From an uncultured Collinsella sp. (GTDB lineage Bacteria; Actinomycetota; Coriobacteriia; Coriobacteriales; Coriobacteriaceae): a DNA stretch of 64,000 nucleotides. Positions 11,187-20,432 of the stretch are shown piece by piece. A model generated the notes under the pieces. The model was not told the DNA's origin, searched no databases, and saw only the letters and a program-made list of their open reading frames with translations. The DNA is taken from assembly GCA_947507155.1 (NCBI GenBank), contig CANNOC010000016.1, forward strand, positions 1 through 64,000, given 5' to 3'. Made by a program: the position numbers and the translations under genes. Each line of letters starts with the position of its first letter. Within the stretch, counting starts at the first letter, position 1.

Positions 11187-11567
11187 CTACTGCATGGTTT
11201 CGGGGGCTACCAGGTCGAGCATCTCGTGCAGTTTGTCGCGCGTGACGCCCAGGGCTTCGGCTTGTTCTGCCGCCTGCGTAAGCAGCTCTTCGATATGGCA
11301 GAGCTGGTTTTCACGCAAGAGTTCTTGGTTGCCGTCGGCAACAAAGCAGCCCTTGCCCTGCACGGTACAGATAAACCCGAGCTGCTCCAGATCGGCGTAG
11401 GCGCGCTTGGTGGTGATGACGCTCACGCCCAGGTCGCTCGCGAGTGCGCGGATGCTGGGGAGTTTGGCTCCCGCGGCGAGCGTGCCCGAAAGGATTTGAG
11501 CTTTGACCTGCGAGGATATCTGCTCGTAGATGGGCTTGTCGCTCGAATTGGATAGGATAATGTCCAC
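11187..11567 (-). CDS. GntR-family regulator, YtrA type
   Basis: A 126-residue protein with an N-terminal winged helix (PIYEQISSQVKAQILSGTL, then LGVSVITTKRAYADLEQLGF) and only a short C-terminal dimerisation tail, which is the YtrA subfamily. These repress their own ABC transporter operon and respond to cell-wall-active antibiotics in known cases. Translation starts at a GTG with AAGGAG just upstream. The inverted repeat at 11595-11628 lies upstream of the start and is the natural operator candidate. Confidence 0.87.
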   Translation of the reverse strand: MDIILSNSSDKPIYEQISSQVKAQILSGTLAAGAKLPSIRALASDLGVSVITTKRAYADLEQLGFICTVQGKGCFVADGNQELLRENQLCHIEELLTQAAEQAEALGVTRDKLHEMLDLVAPETMQ

Positions 11568-11693: not shown

Positions 11694-11908
11694 TCTCAAT
11701 CTGTAACACCTGGGTCCGTTTTGGGTCGCCTGCTGTTACAGATCGAGATGTTATTTGCTCGCCTGCCTATTTGTCTCAATCTGTAACAGTAAGAGTCGAT
11801 TTGCGCGACCAGATGTTACAGATTGAGATTGTGCCGGCGGGCCTGTCCGTTTGTCTCAATCTGTAACAGGTGGAGGCTCGAAACCCGTCTTACCGTTACA
11901 GATTGAGA
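11694..11908. repeat. Array of six alternating 15-bp repeats with exact 40-bp period
   Basis: TCTCAATCTGTAACA occurs at 11694, 11774 and 11854. Its reverse complement occurs at 11734, 11814 and 11894, with single mismatches in the copies at 11734 and 11894. Every repeat is 15 bp and every spacer exactly 25 bp, so any neighbouring pair can form a hairpin. The five spacers differ, though the second and fourth resemble each other. The array fills most of the 486-base gap between the divergent GntR and prfC genes. No cas-like gene is present in the window. Function is unknown; an operator array or a repetitive palindromic element are the main options. Confidence 0.9.
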
Positions 11909-12053: not shown

Positions 12054-13667
12054 ATGGCAAGCCTGTCGGATGAAATCTCGTCGCGCCGCACATTCGCGAT
12101 CATCAGCCACCCGGATGCCGGTAAGACCACGCTTACCGAGAAGCTGCTGCTCTATACCGGCAGCATTCAGACCGCCGGCTCGGTCAAGGGCAAGAGCTCG
12201 GCCAAGCATGCCGTCTCGGACTGGATGGACATCGAGAAGGAGCGCGGTATTTCCGTTACCTCCTCGGTCCTGCAGTTCACCTATAACGGCGCCTGCGTCA
12301 ACATCCTCGATACCCCCGGCCACCAGGACTTCTCGGAGGATACCTACCGTACGCTTATGGCCGCCGACGCCGCGGTCATGGTCATCGACGGCGCCAAGGG
12401 CGTCGAGGCCCAGACCAAAAAGCTCTTTAAGGTCTGTACGCTGCGCCATATTCCCATCTTCACCTTTGTGAACAAGCTCGACCACGAGGCTCGCGATCCG
12501 TTTGAGCTCATGGAAGAGATCGAGAATGTCCTGGGCATCAATACGTATCCCATGAACTGGCCGATCGGCAGCGGTCGCAACTTCCGTGGCGTGTTCGATC
12601 GTCAAACTCGTCGCGTCATTGCCTTTGAGGGCGACGGCCACGCCAACGCCACCAAGAAAGTCGCCGAGGTCGAGGCCGAGCTGGGCGATCCTTCCATGGA
12701 CGAGCTCATCGGCGAGGAGAACCATAAGAACCTGATGGACGACATCGAGCTGCTCGATGGTGCCGGCGACGAGCTCGATTTGGATGCCGTGGCCTGCGGC
12801 AAGCTGAGCCCGGCGTTCTTTGGCTCGGCGCTTACCAACTTTGGCGTGGAGCCCTTCCTCAAGGAGTTCCTGCGTCTGGCCCCGACGCCGCGCGCCTATA
12901 CCGATACGCTCACCAGCGAGCCAGTCGATCCCTGCCGCGACGACTTTAGCGGCTTTGTGTTTAAGATCCAGGCCAACATGGACAAGAACCACCGCGACCG
13001 CATCGCCTTTGTGCGCATTTGCTCGGGCAAGTTCGAGCGCGGCATGGACGCCTTCCACGTGCAGGGCAACCGCAAGCTCAAGCTTGCCACGGGCACGTCG
13101 ATGATGGCCGATGACCGCGCCATCGTGGACGAGGCGTATGCGGGCGATATCGTGGGCCTGTTCGATCCGGGTATCTTTAGCATCGGCGACACCGTGTGCT
13201 CCGGCAAGCGCCACGTGCAGTATCCGCAGATCCCGACGTTTGCCCCCGAGATGTTCGCTCGCATTACGCAGGTCGACACGCTCAAGCGCAAGCAGTTCGT
13301 CAAGGGCATGGAGGAGCTTGCCCAGGAGGGCGCCATCCAGATCTTCCGCGAGCTGGGTGCCGGCATGGAGAGCGTCATCGTGGGCGTGGTCGGCGTGCTG
13401 CAGTTTGAGGTGCTCGAGCGCCGTCTCAAGGCCGAGTACCGTGTTGAGGTTCGTCGCCAGCCGCTGCCCTATACGGACATCCGCTGGATCCAGAACGACC
13501 CCGATACCATCGATATCCCGGGCCTTTCGCTCACGCGCGACACCCTGCGCGTCGAGGATATGCGCGGCGGCAAGCTGCTGCTGTTCACGAGCCCGTGGAA
13601 CGTGGACTGGGCAACCGACCACAACCCCGACCTTATCCTGTCGGAGTTTGGCAACGTAGCCTTTTAA
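12054..13667 (+). CDS. prfC: Peptide chain release factor 3
   Basis: A 537-residue translational GTPase that recycles RF1/RF2 after termination. G1 is HPDAGKTT, switch I contains KERGISVTSS, G3 is DTPGHQDF and G4 is NKLD. The domains after the G domain match RF3 (EPFLKEFLRLAPTPR, then LQFEVLERRLKAEY). RF3 is distinguished from EF-G by this length and by the lack of EF-G domains IV and V. The start at 12054 has AGAAAGGATCC upstream; an in-frame ATG at 12027 has none. TACAAT at 12001-12006 is a plausible -10. A hairpin terminator follows. Confidence 0.95.
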   Translation: MASLSDEISSRRTFAIISHPDAGKTTLTEKLLLYTGSIQTAGSVKGKSSAKHAVSDWMDIEKERGISVTSSVLQFTYNGACVNILDTPGHQDFSEDTYRTLMAADAAVMVIDGAKGVEAQTKKLFKVCTLRHIPIFTFVNKLDHEARDPFELMEEIENVLGINTYPMNWPIGSGRNFRGVFDRQTRRVIAFEGDGHANATKKVAEVEAELGDPSMDELIGEENHKNLMDDIELLDGAGDELDLDAVACGKLSPAFFGSALTNFGVEPFLKEFLRLAPTPRAYTDTLTSEPVDPCRDDFSGFVFKIQANMDKNHRDRIAFVRICSGKFERGMDAFHVQGNRKLKLATGTSMMADDRAIVDEAYAGDIVGLFDPGIFSIGDTVCSGKRHVQYPQIPTFAPEMFARITQVDTLKRKQFVKGMEELAQEGAIQIFRELGAGMESVIVGVVGVLQFEVLERRLKAEYRVEVRRQPLPYTDIRWIQNDPDTIDIPGLSLTRDTLRVEDMRGGKLLLFTSPWNVDWATDHNPDLILSEFGNVAF

Positions 13668-19438: not shown

Positions 19439-19502
19439 ACGCTCTCAATCTCTAACATGCTCTTTTGTGCTTATTTGCGCAGACGATGATACCCCTAATC
19501 GC

Positions 19503-19560
19503 CTAGTCATTGGGGACGTTCTAAAACGATTACTCATTCAAGAACGTCCCCAATGACTAG
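19503..19560. repeat. Perfect 20-bp inverted repeat with GGGGACGTTCT core
   Basis: Arms at 19503-19522 and 19541-19560 match perfectly across an 18-base loop, between the divergent MATE and rlmA-type genes. The right arm recurs at 17-35. The GGGGAC/GTCCCC core links it to the other intergenic palindromes in the window. Confidence 0.8.
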
Positions 19561-19616
19561 GCGGGGAAGGCGTGCGACAATGGTGGGCGTTGTGTTGTTC
19601 GCGCTAAGGAGTTGCC

Positions 19617-20432
19617 ATGTTGTTGTGTCCCGTTTGCCATGAGCCGCTGGTGGATGACGAACGCGGTGCTGCATGCGCGGGTGGGCACCGGTTTGACCGT
19701 GCGCGCGAGGGCTATCTATATCTCCTGCGCTCGTCCAAGAGCGGCGACTCCATGGGCGATCCCAAGTCGCAGGCACGCAGCCGTCGCGACTTTCTGAACC
19801 GCGGTTACTATGCGCCGTTGCGCGATGCGATGGTCGAGCTGGTGCGCGAGCGGGTGTCTGGACGTGCCGCGTCTACGAACTGCCCCATGACGTTGCTCGA
19901 TATTTGCTGTGGCGAGGGCTACTACACCAGCGCCATGGGTGCGGTGCCGGGCGTGGATGCTTACGGCTTTGACCTGGGCAAAGAGATGGTGCGCCTTGCC
20001 GCCAAGCGCGGCGATGCGACCTACTTCGTGGCCAACATGAAGGACATCCCCGTGGCCGATGGCACCTTCGATATGGTGACCGAGCTCTTCGCTCCCTTTA
20101 ACGAGCGCGAATTTGCCCGCGTGCTGGCTCCAGAGGGCTCACTCTATACCGTGGTGCCGGGTGCCCGTCATCTCTTTGGGCTCAAGGAGGTGCTCTACGA
20201 TACGCCGTACCTTAACGATGAGAAGCTGCCGAAGACCACCGAGCTCGAGTTGGTCGGAACGCAGCGGGTGTCTGCGAACATTACGCTCCAGACCCAGGCA
20301 GACATCGAGGCGGTGTTCCAGATGACGCCGTACTACTACCGCACACGCCCTGCCGACAAAGAGCGCCTGGCAAACCTGGATACCCTTCAAACCGACATCG
20401 ACTTCATCATCGCCGAGTACCGCCACAGCTAA
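19617..20432 (+). CDS. RlmA-family 23S rRNA (guanine-N1)-methyltransferase
   Basis: A 271-residue SAM-dependent methyltransferase with the RlmA plan. An N-terminal zinc-binding module has CPVC at residues 4-7 and C19/H23 in AACAGGHRFD. The linker GDSMGDPKSQARSRRDFLNRGYY follows, then the Rossmann motif LDICCGEGYYT. Gram-negative RlmA(I) methylates G745 and Gram-positive RlmA(II)/TlrB methylates G748 of 23S rRNA. In an actinobacterium G748 is the likelier target, but this is inference. CTAAGGAG precedes the start. A palindrome begins two bases after the stop. Confidence 0.87.
   Translation: MLLCPVCHEPLVDDERGAACAGGHRFDRAREGYLYLLRSSKSGDSMGDPKSQARSRRDFLNRGYYAPLRDAMVELVRERVSGRAASTNCPMTLLDICCGEGYYTSAMGAVPGVDAYGFDLGKEMVRLAAKRGDATYFVANMKDIPVADGTFDMVTELFAPFNEREFARVLAPEGSLYTVVPGARHLFGLKEVLYDTPYLNDEKLPKTTELELVGTQRVSANITLQTQADIEAVFQMTPYYYRTRPADKERLANLDTLQTDIDFIIAEYRHS

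Follow-up and report, generated by a model that had tools for sequence, protein, structure and literature searches.

The intergenic array at positions 11694 to 11908 of the window, by which we mean the whole analysed stretch of 64,000 nucleotides from an uncultured Collinsella sp., is one member of a system of paired, inverted 15-mers that is found throughout the genome. Each unit consists of TCTCRATCTGTAACA, 25 bp of spacer and the inverse of TCTCRATCTGTAACA, 55 bp in total, and the units recur at 80–81 bp. We propose, with a probability of roughly 0.6, that the array represents tandem binding elements for a putative sequence-specific DNA-binding protein, a reading drawn from the layout of the sites and from the way in which the DNA between them varies.

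Results

The array in the window and its repeat unit

Six 15-mers of alternating orientation make up the array, at positions 11694–11708 (+, TCTCAATCTGTAACA), 11734–11748 (−, TCTCGATCTGTAACA), 11774–11788 (+), 11814–11828 (−), 11854–11868 (+) and 11894–11908 (−, TCTCAATCTGTAACG). Four of them are exact copies; the second and the last have one mismatch each, that of the second at the A/G-variable position 5. All start-to-start distances amount to 40 bp and all spacers to 25 bp, just as the initial annotation had described, but the true unit, which it overlooked, is the pair and not the alternating single 15-mer. The three pairs (11694–11748, 11774–11828 and 11854–11908) enclose inner spacers at 11709–11733 (CCTGGGTCCGTTTTGGGTCGCCTGC, with a central TTTT), 11789–11813 (GTAAGAGTCGATTTGCGCGACCAGA) and 11869–11893, and are joined by two linkers of 25 bp (11749–11773 and 11829–11853). 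The array was also correctly placed between two divergent genes, one for a GntR-family regulator (11187–11567, − strand, PF00392) and prfC for peptide chain release factor 3 (12054–13667, + strand, RF3_C and GTP_EFTU), the start codons of which are 126 bp and 145 bp away from the array, respectively.

This constant layout is not a product of chance. With up to three mismatches, the 15-mer was matched eight times in the window, compared to a mean of 0.68 and a maximum of 3 in dinucleotide shuffles, and the host assembly of 2.22 Mb contains the exact 15-mer 42 times (25 forward, 17 reverse) and a reversed control pattern not once. At most two mismatches were present in 116 matches, and the host genome harbours about 23 intergenic arrays with more than 100 sites; these and the other genome-wide statements rest on pattern searches and sequence stretches. 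By our own estimate, chance alone would give about 0.2 matches with one mismatch across the genome. A near-match at 19443–19457, formerly taken for a half copy, has no partner 40 bp away and is probably a chance occurrence, unrelated to the arrays. Elsewhere in the window, at 19498–19563, a long near-perfect hairpin (CGCCTAGTCATTGGGGACGTTCT...AGAACGTCCCCAATGACTAGGCG) lies immediately upstream of a methyltransferase-like gene (at 19617) and has the appearance of a further REP-like element.

The whole genome and its relatives were searched for the 15-mer and the spacing between copies was measured, as had been suggested with the first description. The copies are not randomly spaced, array length does not vary without a fixed period, and the finding survived this comparison. 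Among 154 distinct complete arrays, taken from many strains and clear of contig ends, 150 open with a ‘+’ site and close with a ‘−’ site, and the number of sites ranges from 2 to 16 and is almost always even. Arrays of a single pair are rare (14 of 154) and there are almost no solitary sites. The inner distance from ‘+’ to ‘−’ equals 40 bp in 408 of 412 pairs. Since part of the multi-strain set had been fetched with a 40-bp-pair pattern, the unbiased figure is that of the host genome alone, where sites were chosen regardless of spacing and 58 of 59 pairs show the 40-bp distance. The distance from one pair to the next is 40 bp (148 cases), 41 bp (107), 39 bp (6) or 38 bp (1), and the linkers, at 25 or 26 bp, are looser than the inner 25 bp. 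The logo of the 15-mer reaches about 1.7 bits or more at 12 of the 15 positions, and the constrained motif exceeds 15 bp, with A/T at positions −4 and −3, NCTRG after the 15-mer and an A/T centre. Base-specific 15-mers of this kind would need a sequence-specific protein.

Distribution within the genus Collinsella

The host appears to belong to the C. aerofaciens group of Collinsella. The paired motif was present in 23 of 43 Collinsella genomes, with 16–43 pairs each except for one genome with a single pair. Array-bearing genomes encode a prfC N-terminus 99–100% identical to that of the host, where it was found, and species in which this identity is 85–95% are without the array system. Those public-genome matches that bear names are, among the matches listed, all Collinsella and mostly C. 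aerofaciens. The exact 15-mer is absent from 12 genomes that represent other families of the same order (11 of them listed as other genera), and no array-like structure with a different motif was found in 400 kb of the nearest array-less species. Our search of open-access papers yielded no description of the arrays, although one may exist elsewhere.

A single pair occurs in a few array-less species; it sits beside clpB or a PTS/bgl cluster, or else close to a tRNA gene where the contig ends. These pairs look like fragments acquired by horizontal transfer. In two such species, an almost identical oleate-hydratase-like gene and a regulator adjoin the single pair upstream of clpB, suggesting horizontal transfer out of the array-bearing clade. 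Given these neighbours (clpB, PTS/bgl, contig end/tRNA), we rejected the idea that a cognate binder gene adjoins the single arrays of array-less species. Presence/absence profiling is powerless for finding the binder, because the arrays arose in one clade and thus in a single event.

A stretch of about 24 kb around glutamate synthase (G000:C9:55845-79489) has at least seven arrays and is denser than anywhere else in that genome. One complete chromosome (G029) is array-free from 0.47 to 1.05 Mb, terminus region included, a figure for which orthology weakens the ter/ori test. NZ_OY725717.1, recorded as a circular ‘plasmid’ of 899,693 bp from C. aerofaciens TSDC17.2-1.1, has dxs and at least 27 array places and appears to be a part of the chromosome that was wrongly labelled.

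A comparison with phages and plasmids had been proposed as well. For the array, the best phage match had an E value of 0.8 and the sole match in the plasmid collection was an array-bearing Collinsella record. A CRISPR-like array was discarded on account of the alternating repeat orientation and of the missing match to phages or plasmids. A phage origin was likewise dismissed, the sole IMG/VR match being host flank beside a prophage and outside the array. In that record (IMGVR_UViG_2857861838_000001) the prophage is integrated at the 3′ end of thiD, adjoining an array, and the viral contig includes host array DNA.

Placement relative to genes

Arrays avoid promoters and favour convergent gene ends. 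We examined 41 approximately grouped loci, with gene calls of our own that rest on a codon-usage model. None of the arrays there overlaps a called gene; the distance to the nearest start codon is never below 100 bp (median 199 bp), and that to a stop codon can be as short as 9 bp (median 95 bp). The flanking genes are convergent at 19 loci, in tandem at 13 and divergent at 9, compared to 11, 22 and 7 expected from the available space (p 0.007). In the annotated C. aerofaciens record NZ_OY725717, no feature lies beneath the dxs array.

These data bear on the assumption that the arrays are operators, by which an ordinary transcription regulator controls the adjacent genes. Inverted, sequence-specific sites would suit such a function, as would the position of the window array between two divergent promoters. 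However, operators would hardly keep a distance of 100 bp or more from every start codon and be enriched between convergent genes, the neighbours are functionally mixed (ClpB, DXS, prfC, glutamate synthase, PTS/6-phospho-beta-glucosidase), and the same locus has an array in some strains and none in others. We regard this as the least probable of the explanations considered here.

Arms and spacers of the pairs

Whether inverted repeats are kept as hairpins can be read from the covariation of their arms. In a set thinned for relatedness, the arms of a pair differed at 1.568 positions compared to 1.576 in shuffled pairs (p 0.48); in the unthinned set of all unique pairs, the arms resembled each other very slightly more than after shuffling (1.20 versus 1.25, p 0.04). 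In the thinned set the arms of a pair are no more alike than random, and each site is therefore kept as an independent double-strand site. Among mirrored spacer positions that vary within clusters, one stayed complementary throughout and 165 lost or gained complementarity, and spacer halves were even less complementary than expected by chance (3.76 versus 4.77). Since the arms do not covary and the mirrored bases are not compensated, hairpin pairing is not under selection, and the earlier suggestion of serial hairpins in RNA finds no support on either count. Transcribed arrays that stabilise 3′ ends or terminate transcription as serial hairpins are thus hardly plausible, even though the predicted RNA fold of the window array is strong (z −11.35) and arrays sit near stop codons. 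Inverted repeats of any kind fold well, and the inverted 15-mers alone produce the strong fold; moreover, the exact spacer length and positions that change only between A and T would have no reason in RNA, nine of the 41 loci are divergent intergenic regions, and a search of Rfam returned only microRNA models at noise level, far below the gathering scores.

The spacers have a code of a different kind. In 91 non-redundant inner spacers, positions 2, 12 and 22 are A/T in 98–99% and the sequence between them is G/C-rich; CTRG-like letters continue each 15-mer inward into the spacer, and the central A-tract is asymmetric. At period 10, the A/T signal of the spacers has a power of 0.69, compared to 0.26 after shuffling of the spacers and 0.22 for flanks. 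Linkers are rich in G/C at their centre, and the phased 10-bp pattern is therefore strong only inside the pairs and weak in the linkers. Spacers had been described as different in sequence, which is true of their letters; they are nevertheless not unrelated, as they have this position-specific A/T–G/C pattern in common.

In 57 clusters of near-identical, mostly orthologous spacers, 23 of 33 variable columns at positions 2, 11 and 12 from either end changed between A and T only, versus 9 of 298 elsewhere (Fisher p 1e-20). At the phased positions the exchange of A for T is thus free and a change to G/C is rare. An A/T and a T/A base pair look alike in the minor groove, and the A-to-T-only change fits minor-groove or shape readout, unlike neutral drift. 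The fixed 40-bp spacing, the 10-bp A/T–G/C pattern and these restricted changes lend support to protein binding on one face of the DNA, one of the options named at the outset.

Evolution of the arrays

At the prfC locus, the allele is short and empty in 10 of 21 clade genomes; the other 11 have an array with 2, 3 or 4 pairs, of which there are at least four divergent versions, scattered across the tree of the adjacent genes. Because about half of the clade genomes are without a prfC array, no single array is essential. Of the 21 clade genomes in which the dxs locus is intact, 19–20 keep an array of 2 or 3 pairs there; its 40/41-bp spacings are conserved, and there are slots with alternative spacers between conserved linkers. 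In one array, strains differ by exactly one 81-bp unit, and array length varies among strains in whole 80-bp units. Comparison of the same loci revealed 10 distinct spacer replacements versus 666 unchanged comparisons, and up to 15 linker replacements (paralogous loci included) versus 454 unchanged comparisons, all bounded by 15-mers; of 768 context-matched spacers 666 were alike. Nine pairs of loci share near-identical spacers at different places and with different neighbours. Shuffling of the array is slow and leaves a mosaic that retains its 15-mers, its spacing and its A/T phase but not its sequence. A copying mechanism that keeps length, also considered at first, is supported in part, namely by the differences of whole 80-bp units and by 25-bp modules swapped at 15-mer boundaries.

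Swapping of slots and gain or loss of units also fit a mobile or recombinogenic element. If a site-specific recombinase shuffled 25-bp modules by acting on the 15-mers or the A/T core, the exchange of same-locus blocks between 15-mer boundaries would follow; some 12-bp half-spacers recur beside other partners, at only about threefold over a simple null (1.2e-3 versus 3.9e-4 expected), and might have been exchanged at the A/T core, one dxs linker is present in both orientations, and the A-tract is asymmetric. The exchange is slow, however, linkers are swapped too, as they would be under general recombination or template switching between repeats, a spacer inverted in the same slot was not found and no recombinase is linked to the arrays, so that we consider this explanation very improbable.

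A mobile origin would make the 55-bp inverted pair a non-autonomous element similar to REPINs or BIMEs, with the transposase acting in trans, arrays as insertion clusters and a structure kept for transposase recognition. The known REPINs are REP doublets that form hairpins and keep compensatory changes (PMC3116915), whereas arms and spacers of the Collinsella pairs are without covariation and the spacer halves less complementary than chance. The 15-mer core was near none of 12 Y1-transposase loci in a sample of loci, single pairs and solitary sites have the rarity given above, and the empty prfC site has neither a target duplication nor clean element ends. Against these points stand the inverted doublet as an extragenic unit in arrays of alternating orientation, the presence/absence polymorphism at loci, the near-identical spacers at nine pairs of loci and the 10 replacements within a fixed slot. 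Genes of IS200/RAYT type are present in the genus, although array-less species carry them too. On balance, a mobile element appears rather unlikely to us.

Hairpins around GTGCCTGTCCC, for instance CCACAAAGGGGACAGGCACCTTTGTGG, form another repeat family, which occurs within 150 bp of 32 of 159 arrays and, at one locus (L067), on both sides of a Y1-transposase gene. It may be the RAYT-type REP of the genus.

Discussion

Comparison with BIMEs, REPINs and gyrase sites

The arrays resemble BIMEs and REPINs yet fail their defining features. With BIME-2 of E. coli they share an extragenic position and short repeats that are regularly spaced, alternate in orientation, number up to about a dozen and vary among strains. 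The REPs of BIMEs, however, have an imperfect palindrome of their own and TCTCRATCTGTAACA is without an internal stem; the segments between REPs recur in BIMEs, whereas the spacers described here share a helical A/T–G/C code and not a sequence, and their inner distance is fixed at 40 bp. REP superfamilies have a terminal GTAG or CGTC tag beside the palindrome (PMC3733652), and neither tag is present in the 15-mer logo. An inverted doublet of a 15/16-mer at fixed distance with a less conserved spacer is also the layout of a REPIN, but REPINs are mostly single, hairpin-compensated and RAYT-linked, and none of these features was found for the Collinsella arrays, RAYT linkage being judged from the 12 Y1-transposase loci above.

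BIME-2 elements bind DNA gyrase (PMC2817692, PMC6379681) and have been described as strong gyrase sites irrespective of transcription (PMC6379681). The gyrase motif of 130 bp shows phased 10-bp A/T–G/C variation, which has been read as wrapping with the A/T minor groove towards the protein (PMC6379681). The Collinsella arrays show such variation strongly inside pairs and weakly in the linkers, which may amount to a partial likeness to the gyrase pattern over about 130 bp, and enrichment at gene ends is common to both systems; the gyrase motif is degenerate, in contrast to a sharply conserved 15-mer that requires a sequence-specific reader.

A possible mode of protein binding

The pair rule suggests a putative dimer, the phased A/T positions with their tolerance of A-to-T exchange suggest bending or wrapping, and the linkers of 25 or 26 bp suggest stacking of dimers. 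In this model each half-site of about 24 bp would be read by one protein subunit and two subunits on a pair would form the dimer. The intervening DNA would bend round this dimer with the A/T minor grooves inward, about 60 bp being wrapped in six turns at 10 bp, and adjacent dimers would be stacked along the array via the linkers. Judged from sequence features, it is possible, and we advance it tentatively, that putative sequence-specific dimers form positioned, nucleosome-like wraps of about 60 bp each in 80-bp repeats at gene ends chromosome-wide. With the same reserve, the arrays might constitute a lineage-specific chromosome-architecture system with a readable helical code in its spacers. 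By likeness to what is thought of BIME-2 in E. coli, and with less confidence, the nucleoprotein block at gene ends could perhaps serve as an architectural or insulating element, either a supercoil barrier or a transcription roadblock.

Pairs that do not covary show a way to tell protein-binding inverted repeats from hairpin elements. More than 100 sites in one genome and alleles of the same locus with and without arrays provide a clean natural test set for asking whether arrays between genes act as insulators of transcription or supercoiling, a question open for BIMEs too. Should the arrays be positioned wraps, the DNA sequence alone would place a bacterial nucleoprotein array, and would do so by an explicit code of 15-mer pairs and phased A/T, in a bacterium abundant in the human gut.
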